A DNA stretch of 64,000 bases from Sporobolomyces roseus. Taxonomy: Eukaryota; Basidiomycota; Microbotryomycetes; Sporidiobolales; Sporidiobolaceae. Where the stretch lies: contig JADILM010000004.1 in the NCBI GenBank assembly GCA_016617785.1, positions 1 to 64,000 of the forward strand. The letters run 5' to 3'. A model generated the notes under the pieces. The model saw nothing but the letters and a program-made list of their open reading frames with translations, did no database searches and was not told where the DNA came from. Position numbers and translations under genes: made by a program. Positions within the stretch are counted from its first letter, which is position 1. Every line of letters begins with the position of its first letter. Positions 5,132 to 32,100 of this stretch are shown here, piece after piece.

Positions 5132-7171
5132 TTAAACCCTCTTGTGTTGTTTCGCCATTCCACCGACTTGACGCTTCTTGTTAACGAGATGCCATTCCAT
5201 TGCTGCGCTCCTAGTCTTCAAAGCGGCAGCACGTGCAGATCGAATAGAATCGGCTTGAGATTTGCGGTTCATTCGAGAAGTCGTAGTCGAAGTCGAATCT
5301 GCTGCAGTATCGATTTCGGCGGGAACGCTGACGGGAGGAGTGACAGGAGCTGGGGAAGCGGGAGCGGCGGCAAGGTTGTTGATCGATGCGAGAGAGACTG
5401 GAGCAGTCGCGAGACCGACTCGAGCGGGGAAGGACGGCGCGAGAGGTTTGTTCGAAGGAGTTTCGACGGGAATCGCAGCTGAAACGTCGAGAAGCGAGAG
5501 GGAGTCAGCGTGACTGTCCGGAGCTTATCAGAAGAGAGTGACTCACGATTGAGGAGGTTTGCGTTTTGACCGATAGGAGGAGCGGCGGAAGCGGGAGTAT
5601 CGTCTTGAATGATCGAAGGTCCCCAAACCCATCTCTTCGCATTCTCGGCGGGAGAAGTTTCAGCTGCAGCATCGACGACATCTGCACCTTGGGTGACTTG
5701 CGAGTAAGCGTTGGCCAAAGCGTTGATCTCTTCTTGAAGCTTGTTGAGGAGAGCCTCGATGTCGGGAGTTCCTGAAGTCATCTCTGCGGCGACGGCTGAA
5801 AAAGTAGAGGAAGCTTGTTCGACGACTTGTGCGGCAGCTTCAGCTCCTTCTCCTTCGTTCGATTCGAGGGCTTCGAAAGTTTCGGTAGCGGGTTCAGCCG
5901 AAGTAGTTGCGTCGGCGAGAGGAGGGAAAGAAGGAGGAGTGAGTTGAGCGACGGGAGTGTTCATGGCGATCGTAGCTTTTGACAGATTGAGACGTCAGCG
6001 AACGATCGCAGGAAGAGAGAGGAAACAGTCGAAACTCACTACCTTTGCTGAGTAAATTAGCGTTCTCTCCAACGGGAGGAGCGTTCTCATCTCCATCCTG
6101 AATAATCTCGTTTCCCCAAGTCCACCTCTTCTCCTTCGCAGGAGCTGCAGGAGCTTGAGCAGCCTTCTTGCGATCACTCATCTTTTGACGAGAAGCGACT
6201 TTCGATTGGAGAGCGGCGGCTGATTGAGAAGAAGGGAGTTCGGCAGCGAGGGGAGGGAAGGAGGGAGCGGCGAGAGTAGCAGTAGGAGTATTGGCGGGGG
6301 CAGCTGATACGAACAAAGAAGGGGAAATTAGCTAAAAAGAATCGAAAAGAGAGAAAAGGAAACGAACAATTCAAGTAGTTTGCGTTTTCTCCAACAGCAG
6401 GGATGTTCGACGCAGCAGGAGTATCATCCTGAATGATAGCAGTACCCCATACCCATCGCTTATCCTCAGGTTTCTTCAACTCTTCCTTCTTTCCGAAAGT
6501 TTTGACCGTCTTTTCCGGAACTGCGAATGACAGAATAGATCAGCTTCATTCGCGATAAAAGCGAAGAGAGACGATGCCTCACCTCGCTTCTCCAACTTGT
6601 CGGTAGCTGCAGCAGCTTTTCCAGCAGAAGCAGTCTTAATCTCAGCATTTTCGCCGTGAGTGCGAACTCCTTGAGGGAGACGTCCTCCTGATTCGACGAT
6701 ATGCAACTCCTTCTCGAGAGCTGAAGTGGACGATGCTTGAGTCTTGCTCTTCTTGTCGGAAGCGAGAGGACGACGAGCCGAATCGGACGAACGAAGTCGA
6801 GATTTGGCGGAAGATTCGACGGCGGCAGGAGCTGGTCGATCGTGGTGAACTTTCTTGCCGTGTTTCGTCGAAGCGCTATCCGATTTAGCGGAAGAGGAAG
6901 AAGAATCTTTCGTCGATTTTGGGTGAGATTTATTCGAATGAGGAGCCGAAGAAGTCGAGTTGTGAGAATCGGTTCCATTCGAGTAATCTTCGGGAGGAGG
7001 TCGTACTGCTGCATGTCCTGCTCCTAATGCTCGAGCCTGGTTCTGCTGCTTCTTCGTCTGCATTCGCTCGAGAAGTGCTTGAAGTGCTCCCCCTCCTCCT
7101 CCTTCCTTTTCAGCGGTAACGAGAGTGGCGGCGGTCGAAAGCGAGAGTACGAGAAGAGTGGAAGTGCGCAT
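5132..7171 (-). CDS. Secreted Kex2-type repeat precursor (KR-W[VT]WG..IIQD repeats)
   Basis: About 592 aa from five exons: 6583-7171, 6368-6520, 6043-6303, 5547-5975 and 5132-5478. The start MRTSTLLVLSLSTAATLVTA is a typical signal peptide. Next comes a long Ser/Lys-rich, low-complexity region with NGT and NST sequons. Three repeat blocks begin after a dibasic KR: WVWGTAIIQDDTP (about residue 219), WTWGNEIIQD (about 308) and WVWGPSIIQDDTP (about 450). Each closes with NAN[LY]L. Another KR occurs at about 195, and NKKR and KQHKR lie near the C-terminus. Blocks 2 and 3 and the tail open with a TP..(6-7 aa)..PSFP module. Kex2-processed repeat proteins are known in fungi as precursors of secreted peptides; release of W-starting peptides here is inferred. 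I do not recognise the peptide itself. Confidence 0.8.
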
Positions 7172-8247
7172 GATGATAGAGTAGGTTTAGGGTTGGAAAT
7201 GTAGATGAGGGGAAATGAAAGGAAAGGAAAAGAAATGAAAGTTGGCCGGTTGTGGTTTGGCGAGACCTTGAAGGAGTTGGACGAGTTTTGAAGAGGCGAC
7301 TGACGATACTGAGGACTCTGCTTGTACGTCTAGCGATGCGAGTGTCGATGTGAGAGTTGAAAGGGAGAGAGGAGAAGAATCGGAGGTTTGGAATGGTTCG
7401 AAAAAAGGGAGAGCGAGGGACCGAGATTCGAGGAGAAGGAGGTAAAGCTGCCATGTTCGTACAGTGTAGAATTCACTCTAATAGATGACCTTGCCGCTTG
7501 AGGAAGGGAACAAAAGAAGAGTAAACTTCCTCATCCGGTGAATCGACTCGACAGAAAGGAGGCGAGTCGAGAGCCTTGTAATACTCCTTTGTAATCGTTT
7601 GCGGTACTTCTGAGGTTTGATAGCTAGACCTCACTTAGCTCCCGAGCGCTCCGAGAGAATTGTACACCTCATTCGGAGAGCGGAAGTTGATTATTTTGAT
7701 CTCTAGCGATCTGTAGAGGTCTAGTCGGAGCAGTCTTGATCTAGTCGGATCCTTGTAGCTATTCTTGACCATCTTGAGTGGTCGTAGATAGCTTAGCGAG
7801 ATGGTCGGGAGTGGGAGAGGTCAAAACAACTTCGCAACTTTTTCGAAGGAGGAGTAGTTCTCTCTCAACAATTTCCATCAGATTTCTCGCTAGCAGGAGC
7901 AGCTATATAACACTCTACTATACTCTACCATAGCCACCAGAGCGTAATCGAGAGAGGTTGAATATTGCTCGCTCTTTTTACGTCTCTCTTTCCCTCTCTC
8001 CTTCCTTCCCTTCACTCCTTCTCACTCCTACTTTGCTTCTGTGGCTCTGTGACTATGCTCTACTCTCTCAGCCCCTCGTCGTCCAGGTCCGCGGTACTCC
8101 GCTCTGGCTCAGTTCTCCCCGTTTTGCTCTGGCTCTCTCTCTTCTCTTCCTTCAGCCACGAAGATCAGCTCGACGTAGCAAGGTGAGTTCAGCTTCCCTT
8201 GAGATCTCGGTGTATCAGCTCTGAAGCATGTATCCAGTCTCACAGAC
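7172..8247. promoter_or_regulatory. Divergent promoter region with TATA-like box
   Basis: The 1.1 kb between two diverging genes has no supported coding exon. TATATAA at 7904-7910 lies about 340 nt upstream of the plus-strand ATG at 8248 and could serve that gene. A likely 5'-UTR intron runs from 8183 (donor AAG/gtgagt) to 8245 (acceptor cacag), ending two bases before the ATG. The minus-strand signal-peptide gene starts at 7171, with pyrimidine-rich sequence (on its strand) upstream. Confidence 0.45.
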
Positions 8248-10602
8248 ATGTCGAATCGCCATTCACCCGAACCTCCCAAACCCTCCTCCTCCTCCTCCTC
8301 AAGACTCTCGAAGGAAGATCGCTCAGTCAAGGAACGAGTTGAAATCTTGATAACTCGACTAGACCGTACAAAGGATATCCTACTTCACGAATGTTCGAGA
8401 GGAGATCGATTCGGCAACCTCGCTTTGGGTACTCTCGAAAAGACTCTCAAGGAACTCGTACCCGCTATCAAACTCATCGAACAGTCAAGCGACATCAAGG
8501 AGCCTTCGTCCGCGAGTCGAGGTCTCGCGAGATCGGAGGATCAAGCCGTTACTTCGCAAGAGCGAAAGGAGGAGGAGGATGAAATCATACCTTCAAGAGA
8601 TCTTCGTAACGGAGGACGCACATACGACCAAAGAGAAGATGAAGTTTCGTTCCATACACGACCGGATCGGCTCGCCAAGTCTGACTCGATTCGTGTAGTC
8701 GACAACGAGATTTCTCCTCCGCTTTCTCGTTCTCACTCTTTTACTACGAAACGCGACGATCCCCTTCCTCCCAAGAACAACAACTTCTCTGATCTTGAAG
8801 ATCTTCCCGCCGCTCGAATCGAGTCCCGTCAATCGTCCTCTTCTCATCGACAAACCGATTCTACTTCCCCTCTTCCTCCCTCCTCTCGTCCTCTTCCAGT
8901 TTCTCGTCCCGCTTCACGCATCTCGGAGGACTCTACCATTCATCAAAAGGAGGAGGATGTACCCTCGACAAGAAACACGATTTCGAAATTCTTCAATCGA
9001 GCAAAGGACGCCGTTTCACCTTCGATCAACGTCAAGAAAGAACCTCAACTGAGCGAGACCGATACCCCACTTTCCCCTCCTCGCTCATCTCGCTCCGCCT
9101 CAACTAAGCCCGAGAGTAAAGGTGATCGTCGTCGATCTTCAGTCGCAAGCGATTCATCCTCGACCGCTCCTCCCAAACCAGCTTCAACCGATTCTCGCCG
9201 ACGTCGCACCACGAAACCTCCAGTCCCTTCTTCCGATGACGACGAACCTCCATCTCGCGAAACCCTACGATCCCGATCCCGAGCCGGTGGAGCCAGCAGA
9301 ACTTCTTCGCGAGCAAGATTGGGTCGAACCGAGGAGGCAAGGAAAGCTCTAGAGATGGCTTCTGCACCTCCTGGATCATCGGATGAGGAAGTCGATCGAA
9401 GGAGGCAAAGGAAGGAGAGGACGAAGAAGATTGTATTGGATCAAGTCAAAATCATGAAAGTGATTGCGAGGGAATCGGATCTCGCTACTCAAACTACACT
9501 CAGTCAAGTCTCGAAGAGTTACGAGAATGTTGCTCGCCCTCTGCTCTACTCGTCAATCACCATCACTTCCCTCGAACAAGTCGACAAACTCGTTTCCTCA
9601 ATCGAATCGAATCCTTCTCTCGGAGAACTCGTCACTTCCCTCAAACTCACTCCTCTCGACACTGACTCCTCCGATAGTCCCTCTTCAATCCTCCCCTCAC
9701 TCCAGAAGCTGCTCTCCCTCCTCCCAAATCTCATCACTTTCAACGAAGATTTCACTTCCTCGGAATGGGATGTCCAAACCCTTTCCCGAGACTACCCTCT
9801 CACGTCCTCCGCATCGACTCGGCAACTCTCGACATTCTCCTCGAAGCGTTGTTGGTGGGAGATAGGAGCAATCAACGAATTCCTCCTCTCTCAACCTAAA
9901 CTCACGTCTCTCGTTTTCGGAGGAGCAACCATGGATCGAGATTGGGAAGGCACGAAGCTCAAATCCCTTCTCCTCTCATCCTCTCGCAAAGACTCGTCAA
10001 TTCAATCCCTCTCAATCGCTCAAATAATGCACGAAGATACACTCGCCGTTCTACTCCTCCTGTCCCCTCAACTCAAATCCCTCTCCATAGGATTCCAATC
10101 TCTTGGTCCTTCCGACGACGACACTCCACTCTCCTCTATTCCACCCGCACTCAAACCCGTCTCTTCCACTCTAACTCATTTAACTCTCATCGCACCTCCC
10201 AATCCCTCCTCATCTCGAGTTTCCGAAGATACCTCTACTTTACTCGACGACCTTCTCCCCTTCTTACACACGCTCGAATCCCTCTCATTCCAAGAAACCC
10301 TCCATCCCCTTCCAATCCCCATCGCAACCTCCCAAACTTTCCTCTCCCTTCCCCCAACTCTCAAATCTCTCAAAGTTCGTCAATTATTCTCGGTGAGTAC
10401 GGGGGATGTATTAGGGATGTTGGGGAAACCAGAATCGATTCCTGTTTTGGAGGAAATGGATTTGGAGTGGGCCGAAGCGAGGGAAGGGGAGAAAGAGGAT
10501 TGGTGGAAAGAGAGACATTCTATGAGGATTCGGGAGGCTTGTAGGGAGTTTGGGATCAAGTGTGAGGTTGGGAAGGGTGAGAGGAAATTGTTGATTGGCT
10601 GA
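8248..10602 (+). CDS. Large Ser-rich protein with F-box/LRR-like C-terminal half
   Basis: A single 784-codon exon. The first 370 residues are hydrophilic and Ser/Pro/Arg-rich, apart from an N-terminal helical stretch (VKERVEILITRLDRTKDILL) and Lys/Asp patches, and look disordered. From about residue 395 the sequence reads like a basidiomycete F-box-type protein: VIARESDLATQTTLSQVSKS and YENVARPLLYSSITI, then repeated leucine-rich stretches (ELVTSLKL, KLTSLVFGG, SIQSLSIAQ, QLKSLSIGF, TLTHLTLI, LKSLKVRQL). Such proteins commonly act as SCF ubiquitin-ligase substrate receptors or as Leu-rich scaffolds. No strict F-box consensus is visible, so the role is inferred. The start is supported by a probable 5'-UTR intron ending two bases upstream. 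Confidence 0.65.
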   Translation: MSNRHSPEPPKPSSSSSSRLSKEDRSVKERVEILITRLDRTKDILLHECSRGDRFGNLALGTLEKTLKELVPAIKLIEQSSDIKEPSSASRGLARSEDQAVTSQERKEEEDEIIPSRDLRNGGRTYDQREDEVSFHTRPDRLAKSDSIRVVDNEISPPLSRSHSFTTKRDDPLPPKNNNFSDLEDLPAARIESRQSSSSHRQTDSTSPLPPSSRPLPVSRPASRISEDSTIHQKEEDVPSTRNTISKFFNRAKDAVSPSINVKKEPQLSETDTPLSPPRSSRSASTKPESKGDRRRSSVASDSSSTAPPKPASTDSRRRRTTKPPVPSSDDDEPPSRETLRSRSRAGGASRTSSRARLGRTEEARKALEMASAPPGSSDEEVDRRRQRKERTKKIVLDQVKIMKVIARESDLATQTTLSQVSKSYENVARPLLYSSITITSLEQVDKLVSSIESNPSLGELVTSLKLTPLDTDSSDSPSSILPSLQKLLSLLPNLITFNEDFTSSEWDVQTLSRDYPLTSSASTRQLSTFSSKRCWWEIGAINEFLLSQPKLTSLVFGGATMDRDWEGTKLKSLLLSSSRKDSSIQSLSIAQIMHEDTLAVLLLLSPQLKSLSIGFQSLGPSDDDTPLSSIPPALKPVSSTLTHLTLIAPPNPSSSRVSEDTSTLLDDLLPFLHTLESLSFQETLHPLPIPIATSQTFLSLPPTLKSLKVRQLFSVSTGDVLGMLGKPESIPVLEEMDLEWAEAREGEKEDWWKERHSMRIREACREFGIKCEVGKGERKLLIG

Positions 10603-14599: not shown

Positions 14600-17849
<3,250 letters not shown>

Positions 17850-26124: not shown

Positions 26125-29100
26125 TTAGTTAGTGATAGTACTCGATAAAGCTCCCGTTCCAGCTCGACTCCTCTTCTTCTGAGCAGCCAATTTAGCTTTC
26201 AACGCATCCAATTTCGTTCCACCCGTTGTCCCTCCCACTCCCACTCCTCCTCCCGTTCCAGGTCCAAGTTTCATCTCCTTCACCCCTCCTCCTCCTAACG
26301 CAGACGAACCATTTCCATCAACTTGACCCAATACCGCTCGAGCAGGTAGAGATTGAGATTGTTCATGTTCAGGTTTCAAAGGTACTATTGAATCCTTCTT
26401 TGTTATTCCAATGACCGATCTCGTTCGAGGTTGAGTCTTGACTTCATTCTCTTTATCGTCGACGACGGAAAGGTTAGGAAGAGGTTTCGTAATGATTGCA
26501 CGAGGAGTTTCGGTACAAGTTGAGGAGGAAGGGAGAGGATCGAAATCTACTGGTGCTCGTCGTTTCTTGTTTGATGAGGGAGCTTCAGCAGCGATCGAAG
26601 GAGGGGGAGGAGGAGGGACGGATTTGGATAAGAGTAGATCTCGTTGGAGGGAGGTGATTTTAGCTTTGAGTCGCTCGATTTGAGAGGTGAATCGTTTTTG
26701 AAGTTTGAGAGCCTATGAAGTGGTCGGGTGTGGATCGAGAGCAAATGAGAAGGATTCAGTAACCCCGTCGAATAGACTCCGAAACAAGACGAAAGAGATT
26801 CTAAAAGTTTTACCTCGATGAGTTTCTCGTCTGCTTCGTCCATATCCTCCATTCTCTGATTCAGTAGATGCTCCAACTCGTCTACTCGCGCATCCTTCTC
26901 GACGAGTGCACTATTGAGGGTAACAACTTGAGCTTCGGTCTTCTCCAAACAATCGAGGACTTCTTTCATGTGTTGATCTTGTTCAGTTCGGACTTGTTTG
27001 ATCGTTTCTTCCGAAGCTTGAGCTAATCCTTGTACATCTGTCGTAAGTCAACTTTAATGTGTCAGTATCGTATGAAGAGGGTATAGAAAGCGAAATCAAG
27101 CTGAAAACTTACGAGTTTCGAATTCACCAATTTGAGCTCTCAATTGGTTGACTTCGTTTGTCAAAGCTGCCGCTTCATCCTGAGACGATCTTGCGAGTTG
27201 TCTCAGAGTCTGAATCTCCATCGCCGCTCTCTCCGATGCCGCTCTAGCTTTGAGGTTCGTCTCCTTCTCAGCTTGAACCGCTTCATCCGCTGCCGACGCC
27301 GCTAGTGCAGCCGTAGATCGTTCTTGTTTCAACAGAGTCGACAGTCGTTCAACATCGTGAAGTGCTGATTCGAGTTGTGCGGAGAGAGAAGAGATTTGTT
27401 CCTCCGAGTCGCTGCCGTTCGAAGTCGAGAGGGATTCTTGAGCGGCAGCGAGTTGTTCTTCGAGGATCGAAATTCGACGTTGAGCTTGTTCGTGAAGAAT
27501 AGCGTACTCCTCCGCTTCGACGAGTTGATGCTGGAGTTGGGAGATTTCGGTTTGTCGATCGGCAGTTGCTCTTGAGAGTGCTGCTTCTTGCTCTCGGAAT
27601 GACAACTCGAGTCCTTGGTGAACGGTGGAAAGGGCGGAGAAGCGATCTTGTAAGGCGTCGAGTGATGTCGTAGCGAGATGAGCGCGTTCGTTTGAAGCGG
27701 TGAGATCCGAGAGGGCTTGGCTCAAACGTCCTTCGACTTCGGCGAGCTGAAGTTCGAGAGATTCGACCTGTGCTTTCGATGTCGAGGCAGTCGATTCTGA
27801 AGTAGCTTGGAGATCCCCGAGCGACTTTTCGAGGGAGTCGATGCGTTCTGAAGCGAGATCGAGCTCAGAAGTCTTGGTCGCGACGTCCGCTTCGAGCCTC
27901 TTAATCTCTTCCTCTGTGGTTGATTGCGCCGACTCCACAACGGTGAGAGCTTGTCGAAGGGAATCTACTGTTGCGAGAAGATCATCACGTTCGGTTCGAA
28001 TCGAATCGTGTTGCTGTTGAAGGGCTTCGAGCGTATCTTGCGCCTCTCCAAGACGACTTCGTTGCTCTTCGTCCTGCTGACGAGCGGTGGCTAGTTCCTC
28101 CTCGAGCTTGGCGGAGGAAACCGTAGCTTCGTGAGATTGCGAAGTGAGGAGTAGAATTTGGGCTTCGAGCTTAGTGAGCAGATTTTCGAGAGAGAGGCGA
28201 GCCGAGAGCTCTTCCGAAAGACGACCTTCGAGATCTGCGAGGTGTTCAGGAGAAGATGAAGGATCGACAGCGATTGTTCGGTCTCCGGCGAAAAGGTCCT
28301 CCTCCTCCTCTTGAAGAGATCGTTCCTGGTCGGTGTCGTCCTCGTCATCATCGTCCTCAATAGCGACACGAACGGCAAGGTTGAGCTGAAGGAGGGAGAT
28401 AGAGCGCTCGCGTTCTTGAATGAGAGCGGTTTGTTCGGCGATTCTGCAAAATGCCGAACGCTTTCAGCATTTAGTCGACACCAGGGAATGCGAAACAGGA
28501 GAGACTCACTTCGATCGTAGTCCTGAAGCATCAGATTCGAGGCTTTCGCAAAGAGTTGCGAATTCTGCGAGAGCTCCATTTTGACGAGATTCCTCCTCCT
28601 TCTGAGCGGCGACGAGAGCTGCTTCCAATTGCGAGATACGAGAGGCCGACTCCGTGGCTTGAGCATGTTGACGATCGAGTTCGGTAGCCGCTGCTCTCAA
28701 GTCTGATCGAAGGGCATCGAGAGTAGCGTTGAGTTCAGCGTTCGAAGCGTTCGCGGAATCGAGTTGTTCGCGGATCTATTGACGGTATCGTTTGTCAGTG
28801 AACGGAATGAACAGAGGATTGAGTATAGAGAGATCGACGTACCGTTTCAGCGGATCTAGTGGCAGCTTCTAATTCTCCTTCGAGAGCCCAAGCACTTTCT
28901 CGTCCAGCTTCATGCTCCTCCCTAGCCTTGTCCGCCTCATGTAAACGCTTCTCAAACTCATCAACCTTGCCCGTCGCTAGTCTGAGCTCCCTCGTTGCCG
29001 ACTCTAGCTCATCCTCGATTCTCGTCTTCTCAACTTTCGCCATTCTCAAAGCCTCTTCCACCTTGGCATTCGTATCGCATTCATGTTCGAGAGCTACTGA

Positions 29101-32100
29101 CTTGTCCATGAGGTCGATCTCCATGATGCTGAGCGCTCTCGCGTTGTTCTGTTCGTTGACTTCGAGACGTTTCTGAAGCGATTCGACTCGGAAGGAAGCT
29201 TCGGTACGAGCAAAGTCGAGCCGTTGGCGTAACTCGTCTCGTTCTTCTCGAAGTCGGAGGATCAGGATAGTAGGGTCGGAGGAAGGGGAGAAACCGAAAG
29301 AAAGATTTGTTGGCGAAGGGGAAGGAGCGAGAGGTGAAGAGCCAAGAGGTGTAGAAGGAGCGAGAGTTGCGGAAGCGGCGAGTTCAGCTTGAGATTGATC
29401 AAGTGCATCTTGAGCGTCGGATAGCTTGTGTCGAGTTTCGTCGAGTTCAGATCGCAGGCGAAGTCCTTCCTCCTCTGCCGCTTCGGAACGCTTGTTGAGT
29501 CGATCGATCTTCTCCTCCGCTAGTCGAGCTTGATCCTTCGCTGCTGATTGAGCCTCCTTTAGATCCCATCCGAGCGAGTCGAGACGCGATTCCGTTTCAC
29601 CGAGGATGTGACGAAGAGCGTCGAGAACCGACAACTCCCTTTGAAGATCCTCGATTTGATTCTCCTGACCACGAAGGCGAAGCTGAAGCTCGGCAATTTC
29701 TTGCATGTGACTGTAAGAGTCGTCCTCAGCGTTGGCGCGAACATCATCGAGTTGCGCGTTGACCTCCTCCAATTCTCGTTCGAGTTCTTCGATGTGATCG
29801 CTCGAGAAGCTTTCCTCCGGTACCTTGAGCTCCAGTTCGTCCTTGATCTTCTCCAGATCCTTGCGAGTGCGAGTCTCGATGTCGAGGAGACCTTGAATAG
29901 CTAGGAGTTCCTCCTTCGTTTCTTCGAGATTCTTGTTTGCGAGTTCAAGATCCAGTTCGGCCGTGAGACTCGATCCTCGTTCCGACATCATCTTGTCCTT
30001 GAGGTCGGTAATCTCAGCTTCGAGAGTTGCGATTCGTTGCTTCGATACCTTCTGAGCTTCCTCCCTAGCCCATTCACCACTTTCCAACTCCTGAATTCGT
30101 TCTTCGAGATCGACAACCTTCGCTTGTTCAGCAACTACTTGCGACTCGAGATCTTGGACCTTCGAATCATCGTGAGAGCGAGTTGGTAGAGAGCGGAAGT
30201 GGACGAGTTCAGTTTCGAGGGAAGAGAGAGAATCAGCATGTTTCGAAGAATTGGAAGCGAGCTGATCTCGTTCGGCGGTCAAGGAGTCAATCCTCTCCTC
30301 CAGTCGCTGTACGGCCACCTTGAGCTCTGCGATCGATTGGCGTGAGTCGGATTCGGAGGTGGTAACTTGATCGAGTTTGGCAGAAACCGTCTCGAGTTCT
30401 TGATCCTTCTTGAGCAGCTCGCCATCGAGGCGATCGCATTCGACGGCAAGAGAGTCGTGAGCTGCCATCAGCTCGTCGAATTCGGACACTTGGGTTTCGA
30501 GTGAGTCGATGTCGGATTCCTTCTTGAACACCTCAGCTTCGAGAATCGCAATTTGAGCTTCTAACGCTGATGGGTCGGTTGTCGACGTGGAAGGTACGCT
30601 GAAGTGATCACAAGCGAGTCAGCGACCACGATAATCAGATATAGATGATGCGAACAAGACTTACGGAACAGCAGCGAGTTGATTTCGAAGATCGTCAACT
30701 TCTGCTTCCCTCTCGGCATCAGTCGCTCGAAGCTGCTGTTGAATCGCTTCGCCTTCGGACAACTTCGATCGGAGCTGTTGAGACCTGACGACAAGCGGAC
30801 GATTAGCTCACGAATCGGATTCAGCGAAAGCGATGGATTTACTCTTGCCTAGCTTCTCCAAGCAACCTCTCGAGTTCCTCACGATTCCCTTCCAAGTCTT
30901 CCATATCGCCTCCTCGCTTCTCCATCTCGACCAGCGATTCCCTCAATTCCTCAATCTGCGCTTCCAATTCCTCTCTCAACTCCTTAGCTTCATCCATCGC
31001 TACCTCATGGGTTTCCTCAGTGAAAGCCAACTCATTCTCCAACTCCTCACATTCCTCCTCCTTCTCCTCCAAACTTTCTGTGAGCTCCCTAACCTGCTCC
31101 TTGGCACCGTTCAATTCCCTCAGTAAATCCTCTCGTTCCCCACCTCTCCTCTCCAACTCTTGCTCGAGTCCCTCCAACTCACTATTCAACTCATTCGCTC
31201 GTTCTTCAAGTTCTCGTTTCTCCTCCTCTGCACCTTGAACGATCTGTTCCATTTCCCTCGACAATTCCTCCCTGACTTCCCTAGTCTCCTCCCTCGCAAT
31301 TTCAAGGTATTCTTTCGCTTCCTCCGTATCATTCCTGAGCCTCTCCATTTCCTCACTAGAAGATCTTTCGAGAGCCATGAGTTGATTCTCAACTCTCAGT
31401 AACTCGTCCTTCTTCTTCGCGAACTGGTTTTGAGTGGTCGAAAGTGTCGTTTCGAGGGTTTGGATTGTGGATTGAGCGTGGGCGAGATCAGTCGAGAGGT
31501 AAGTGATTGTGTCTTGAGCTGAAGAGAGGGATGATTCGAGTTGAGCTAGTTTGGCGGTTTGTTGAGCAGAATTCGAGGAAGTATTGATTGCTGCTGGAGT
31601 AGATCCAGTGATGGAGGGTCGACGAGCGGGTAGTTTCGAGGGTCCAGGGATAGAGGATTGGTTGGAGAGGGAAGAAGGGGGACGAATCGAGGAAGGAGGC
31701 TGGGAATCAGAAGTCGAGATGGAGGAACGAGATTTGGCGGTTGAGGGTGCAGAGGGAATGCCAGAATTGAAGCCGAATCTTCCCCGAGGGGTTTCGGCAG
31801 TCACGTTCGATGAGCGAGAAGGCTGAAGGAGTGGGAAGCATCAGCCTCGCCTCGAAACTTCGAGAGGTTTCGAGAACTCACTGGTCGAGCAATCTTCGAA
31901 ACTACCGGAGCTTTGGTGTTCGTCGAATCGGCTAGGACAGCGAATGATCGGTTCTCCTTCTCCTTCTCGAGTTCGAGTTGAGCTTGTTGTAGTTCCATGG
32001 AGAGTTTGTGAACTCGTTTCTCGAGAGCTGCTTTCTCTTCTGCTACTTGAGCGTTCGCCGCCGTCGCCGATCGAGCAGAGGTTACTTCAAGTTCTGTGAG

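Follow-up and report, generated by a model that had tools for sequence, protein, structure and literature searches.

Tryptophan-headed blocks behind dibasic sites in a family of predicted Kex2-processed precursors from Microbotryomycete yeasts

Introduction

Kex2-processed repeat proteins (KEPs) are an established class of fungal proteins (main texts of PMC6339444, PMC7329392 and PMC9769878). The main text of PMC6339444 defines a KEP by a signal peptide, at least four fragments of at least 2 aa, a motif shared by at least three of them, and repeats covering 15% or more of its length; that paper terms motifs with variable regions between them untypical, and yeast-like Basidiomycota are described there as yielding longer putative peptides, so that this general trend has been seen already. 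The definition in the main text of PMC7329392 asks for at least three repeats that lie between Kex2 sites and measure 8-100 aa, with none longer. In basidiomycetes, precursors whose repeats are separated by Kex2 sites are known from Ustilago maydis, namely Rep1, Hum3 and Rsp1. Rep1 has 12 imperfect repeats of 34-55 aa; its peptides measure 35-53 aa, apart from one of 228 aa, and it is connected with surface fibrils, amyloid formation, attachment and aerial hyphae (PMC4617103).

Here we describe a gene from a window of 64,000 nucleotides at the start of contig C4, in a genome of 22.4 Mb and 15 contigs, whose predicted product is best read as a dispersed-head variant of the Kex2-processed repeat proteins. 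Like KEPs, the protein has a signal-type start, repeats that each follow a KR, RR or KK site, and several pieces per precursor. Unlike KEPs, it repeats just a head of ~47 aa, here called the W-block, which is followed by long dissimilar tails. A preliminary description of this DNA had supposed a different class of signal; since Rep1, Hum3 and Rsp1 are already known, the class is not new, and novelty is confined to the W-block family.

Results

The gene lies on the minus strand, with its ATG at 7171 and its stop at 5132, which are exactly the limits given in the preliminary description. Joining the exons from the DNA yields five exons and a single frame of 592 aa followed by the stop, separated by four introns of 62-68 nt that are all GT-AG and all in phase 1. 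The model bears out the proposed layout, in which a single precursor opens with a signal-type sequence and carries three W-blocks, each right after KR. The features, in the order of transcription, are as follows; block-end coordinates in exon 3 were obtained by counting along the gene model.

6583..7171, minus strand: exon 1, with the ATG, signal-type aa 1-20 (7171-7112), conserved aa 21-40 and a long Ser/Lys/Ala-rich stretch
6521..6582, minus strand: intron 1, 62 nt
6368..6520, minus strand: exon 2, with KR (6461-6456) and the first part of W-block 1 (6455-6368), which was also matched at 6455 in a separate search
6304..6367, minus strand: intron 2, 64 nt, within block 1; its reading has diverged in the relative P0001
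6043..6303, minus strand: exon 3, with the end of block 1 (6303-6251), a spacer, KR (6130-6125) and the first part of W-block 2 (6124-6043)
5976..6042, minus strand: intron 3, 67 nt, within block 2; its reading is partly alike in P0001
5547..5975, minus strand: exon 4, with the end of block 2 (5975-5920), a spacer, helix-like aa 408-435 (5757-5674), KR (5637-5632) and the first part of W-block 3 (5631-5547)
5479..5546, minus strand: intron 4, 68 nt, within block 3
5132..5478, minus strand: exon 5, with the end of block 3 (5478-5423), a spacer, the conserved C-terminus aa 546-592 (5275-5135) containing NKKR and QHKR, and the stop

The predicted exon joins are backed by comparison across species. 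P0001, a metagenome protein that is a close relative and reads through the introns, keeps 36/37, 85/86 and 137/142 residues of the window exons, against 8/22 and 13/21 residues alike for two intron readings; the latter figure belongs to intron 3, whose first part is alike in P0001, so that this intron is weaker as evidence for the gene model. Ser/Lys/Ala-rich stretches are often open by chance, and it could be asked whether exons of different genes had been joined and the repeat were an artefact of reading. This is highly improbable, as P0001 keeps the exons much better than the intron readings, at least 40 relatives have the motif, most of them in the same layout, and in a paralogue from the same genome a phase-1 intron interrupts the first block at the same point:

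1605974 to ~1604986 of contig C6, minus strand: paralogue with two dibasic W/Y-blocks

The paralogue, initially a weak match (E 0.025), has a hydrophobic N-terminus and the blocks KR-WIWGPEIVQD and KR-YYQGTSIIQD. In a rough tree these group with a single-block protein of R. toruloides, which suggests an old second gene. A DNA pattern of RW[VI]W plus a small residue was of no help in finding paralogues, with 92 sites compared with 55 for the reversed control.

The three blocks of the window protein begin as follows:

aa 219, after KR at aa 217-218: W-block 1, KR-WVWGTAIIQD..NANYL
aa 308, after KR at aa 306-307: W-block 2, KR-WTWGNEIIQD..NANLL
aa 450, after KR at aa 448-449: W-block 3, KR-WVWGPSIIQD..NANLL

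Inside this single protein the self-repeat is modest, the best gapless 30-residue match being 16/30 compared with at most 12/30 in 100 shuffles; between species the repeat exceeds chance by a wide margin, judging by the E values and the dibasic pairs given below. The motif of W[VT]WG, IIQD and NAN[LY]L is as first described. NAN[LY]L is not the end of the block, since conservation continues beyond it, across the intron, to a TP...PSFPP ending that is found no more than 75 aa downstream in 109/119 blocks of the family and makes the conserved block ~47 aa long.

In a comparison of eight Sporobolomyces proteins, including two from S. pararoseus, blocks 1, 2 and 3 are 75, 80 and 71% identical and the three KR pairs 100%, compared with 31-57% for most spacers, the exception being the 12 aa before block 3 (aa 436-447, 77%). 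The blocks are thus kept better than most spacers, as had been expected, and the reverse pattern, spacers conserved like blocks while KR is lost, was looked for and is absent: 0/119 recognised blocks lack a dibasic pair. In the same eight proteins the signal region (aa 1-20) is 80% identical, and aa 21-40 and the C-terminus (76% each) lie outside the blocks and are conserved to the same degree. Blocks in the same position are 73% identical (63 pairs from seven Sporobolomyces proteins) and different blocks inside one protein 55% (21 pairs), which indicates that the three blocks are mostly older than these Sporobolomyces species; the rough block tree is not clean, P0008 block 1 grouping with block 3. 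Two stretches of the window are conserved outside the blocks, 5674-5757 (helix-like, in the spacer that leads up to block 3) and 5132-5275 (the basic C-terminus), and relatives from other genera have an amphipathic-looking WWNPK..LFH at the corresponding place.

Three protein searches gave at least 40 relatives (26, then 2, then 12 further), with E down to 2.5e-145. The first and third searches scored the best 7997 and best 8000 candidates; with the single-block protein of R. toruloides as query, 11 candidates were scored and only R. toruloides copies came back. The relatives come from at least 26 named species (seven Sporobolomyces, ten Rhodotorula, seven Rhodosporidiobolus, Meredithblackwellia eburnea and Pseudohyphozyma bogoriensis), and looking up one member or the genus for each placed all five genera in the Microbotryomycetes. 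This class includes biotechnological and leaf-surface yeasts. The best named matches to the window protein are Sporobolomyces proteins, which points to a red yeast of Sporobolomyces type as the host, and none of the matches listed is from rusts, Microbotryum or Ustilago. A signal-type MR... start is present in 34/40 relatives; the exceptions (P0001, P0005, P0017, P0025, P0038 and P0039) are fragments or models that begin elsewhere. Counting fragments, the 42 proteins formed by the 40 relatives, the window protein and the paralogue carry three motif-recognised blocks in 23 cases, four in 8, two in 7 and one in 4, that is, three or four in 31/42 and one or two in 11/42. The family is real, and the observation that led to it is right in its stated details.

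Among the matches listed, named public members are labelled hypothetical or uncharacterized, apart from two called proteophosphoglycan and one GNAT. The former, P0012 and P0027 of R. toruloides, are 'Proteophosphoglycan ppg4' in UniRef, a name for which the Pfam scan of other members offers no backing. In the latter, P0040 of Pseudohyphozyma bogoriensis, the public model joins a two-block protein to an acetyltransferase, perhaps by fusion of neighbouring genes. When 20 family members were scanned against Pfam, the window protein had no match, and six families each matched one other member (best E 0.0067), which we take as chance. Against solved structures, the whole-family profile gave nothing up to E 0.1; with the block profile, two coronavirus spike chains matched weakly (E 0.0014 and 0.048), no stretch passing alone, and these are likewise taken as chance. 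A literature search of titles and abstract openings returned nothing on the W-block family and nothing joining Kex2-processed repeats with Pucciniomycotina, and family peptide strings returned unrelated titles only. The main texts of PMC6339444, PMC7329392 and PMC9769878 contain no Rhodotorula, Sporobolomyces, WVW or IIQD.

With a motif that demands no upstream basic pair, a dibasic pair was found directly before 119/119 recognised blocks in the 42 proteins (102 KR, 15 RR, 2 KK), compared with 312/19101 non-block residues (1.6%) in 41 proteins, the paralogue left out, although blocks share descent and several species contribute more than one sequence, so that these are not independent trials. 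In the same 41 proteins a pair precedes 5/232 other W/Y, missed blocks possibly being among these, and with a narrower motif 86/86 blocks in 27 proteins follow one. The motif overlooks strongly eroded blocks, for example block 4 of P0020, which follows KK, and block 1 in P0024, P0030 and P0031, where KR-W leads into changed sequence. Relative entropy around the block start rises from 1.49 bits at -3 to 3.91 at -2, 4.34 at -1 and 5.66 at the W; the second residue is V in 84 blocks, I in 25, T in 7, A in 2 and Y in 1 (n = 119), and W[VI]W..IIQD at the extreme N-terminus is the best-kept stretch of the block. Matches to a kexin-type P-domain occur at one place in the genome, on contig C6, with adjoining Asp, His and Ser active-site motifs. 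The constant dibasic pair, restricted to KR, RR and KK and rare elsewhere, the entropy rise at the pair, the higher identity of blocks than of spacers, and the kexin gene all favour Kex2 processing of the precursor, which we consider quite probable from these sequence patterns.

KR might also be conserved as one element of a motif at which no cut is ever made. The protein would then be an O-glycosylated cell-wall or extracellular protein with KR-W as a binding or anchoring element, in keeping with a Ser/Thr/Pro/Ala content of 40-53% in the longer pieces and with the conserved parts outside the blocks. We consider this improbable, because the only substitutes for KR, in 17/119 blocks, are RR and KK, a pattern that a protease site would show, and the basic C-terminus is by inspection unlike a GPI signal.

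Cutting the window protein in silico at KR/RR and trimming basic ends gives pieces of 112, 60, 20, 87, 140, 128, 9 and 1 aa, of which those of 87, 140 and 128 aa are W-headed. When 36 MR-starting proteins are divided from each block start up to the following KR/RR, or up to the C-terminus where none follows, 104 pieces of 40 to 342 aa result (median 130.5), 73 of them longer than 100 aa. Short W-starting peptides ending at NANLL, as originally envisaged, do not follow from the sites, whose spacing yields long pieces. The heads are weakly hydrophobic (GRAVY -0.38 to -0.05). An AlphaFold model of S. pararoseus P0002 from 24 aligned rows (mean pLDDT 46.4, pTM 0.20) is too poor for a fold search; it is mostly unstructured, blocks included, as expected for linear peptides, and its helices (6-12, 31-48, 163-172, 403-427, 554-568 and 570-576) all lie outside the blocks, one of them at the position that corresponds to the helix-like aa 408-435 of the window protein. 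The model thus argues weakly against the blocks being small folded domains.

Set beside the definition in the main text of PMC6339444, the window protein has a start that is signal-type by inspection and conservation; KR/RR cutting gives eight pieces, seven of at least 2 aa; three pieces share the W-headed motif, which is our own and not a product of that paper's Fimo procedure; and three heads of ~47 aa make up 24% of the 592 aa by our own arithmetic rather than the paper's script. By the main text of PMC7329392, two of the three W-headed pieces, at 140 and 128 aa, exceed the permitted length. This layout reaches or oversteps the bounds set by the published Kex2-repeat surveys, which may therefore have missed other precursors with dispersed heads.

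Discussion

The best explanation as a whole, towards which we lean on balance, is a secreted, kexin-cut precursor that releases W-headed surface polypeptides; its secretion, cleavage, trimming and function we infer. A Golgi kexin (Kex2) would cut the secreted precursor after each KR, releasing three largely unstructured polypeptides of ~87, 140 and 128 aa together with pro-segments and a small basic C-terminal piece. Each polypeptide would consist of a W[VT]WG..IIQD...TP...PSFPP head (~47 aa) and a long Ala/Ser/Thr/Pro-rich tail, and the conserved N-terminal heads would do their work outside the cell, most likely by associating among themselves or with the wall to form a surface coat or adhesive material, in the manner of the U. 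maydis Rep1 peptides and not as a diffusible mating signal. Several features speak against this explanation: the conservation of aa 21-40, of the helix-like part of the spacer and of the C-terminus suggests that the protein does more than carry heads, the long pieces are unlike those of compact repeat precursors, and the heads are only weakly hydrophobic.

Rep1 has the nearest layout, being like the window protein a basidiomycete precursor with imperfect repeats of similar length, Kex2 sites and a long piece, a likeness drawn from its description; Rep1 was not among the listed matches of the three family searches. The two differ in that Rep1 has 12 mostly tandem repeats compared with 1-4 dispersed heads here, and in that amyloid formation and surface location have been shown for Rep1, whereas a surface location is a proposal for the present family. 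By analogy with this layout, and given that a hydrophobin search of the genome gave no match (its tool control was silent) and that mating-type features are lacking, a surface role may tentatively be proposed.

Comparison with alpha-factor precursors of Ascomycota, which had been drawn at the outset, proves weak. Like those precursors, the window protein is of secreted type with KR-flanked copies; unlike them, it is without XA/XP spacers and has long pieces. The XA/XP signature of Ste13 follows the pair in 2/119 (XA) and 0/119 (XP) blocks, and a STE2-type receptor gave no match in the genome, where the tool control was silent and the STE3 search of the same kind returned one gene, on contig C11. 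An alpha-factor-type signal is therefore unlikely. CAAX lipopeptide pheromones occur in basidiomycetes, and this genome has a STE3 receptor gene. Unlike such pheromones, the window protein has a signal-type start; it contains 0 cysteines and hence no C-terminal CAAX box.

The W-headed pieces might instead be extracellular messengers whose sequence class has not been described before, resembling hormones or quorum signals or directed at plants or competitors, and read through a free Trp N-terminus. That the block is best kept at its extreme N-terminus fits this idea, and Kex2-released fungal peptides do include pheromones and effectors (main texts of PMC7329392 and PMC9769878). With ~90-140 aa and tails of low complexity, however, the pieces would be big for messengers, and the absence of a Ste13 signature and of a STE2 match also weighs against it (the receptors sought were STE2 and STE3), so that we think messengers unlikely. 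Our best guess, made with modest confidence, is that the polypeptides are surface material rather than messengers. More speculatively, and with considerable doubt, they may form an undescribed family of non-lipidated extracellular messengers or surface builders of Microbotryomycete yeasts, in which a kexin-exposed W[VI]W..IIQD head on a long polypeptide is read by a dedicated partner: a receptor, some component of the wall, or the head itself. If true, basidiomycetes would have an extracellular peptide system that belongs to neither the CAAX nor the alpha-factor type.

A signal-type start with Kex2-flanked, aromatic-rich repeats also recalls the precursors of modified ring peptides of the dikaritin type. 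The conserved head of ~47 aa is much longer than the cores of 8-14 aa (main text of PMC7329392), and UstYa/DUF3328 had no match in the genome (tool control silent) or in 18 scanned window frames, taken from the 29 frames of at least 170 aa in 1-40000 with introns ignored; such an origin is very improbable. The same 18 frames bear no sign of a natural-product cluster. Against Pfam, three of them are above cut-off (DEAD helicase, Sec1, Na/H exchanger), three have coiled-coil matches below it, and twelve have none.

Some neighbouring features of the window may be recorded. A 799-aa open frame at 8203-10602, on the opposite strand, adjoins the window gene and has a Ser-rich start and no Pfam match. 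The DEAD-box helicase frame (15004-15819) lies within 14689-17840, with glycine-rich, coding-like tandem repeats on either side. At 27096-31840, three long minus-strand frames with the coiled-coil matches below cut-off perhaps belong to one large coiled-coil protein.
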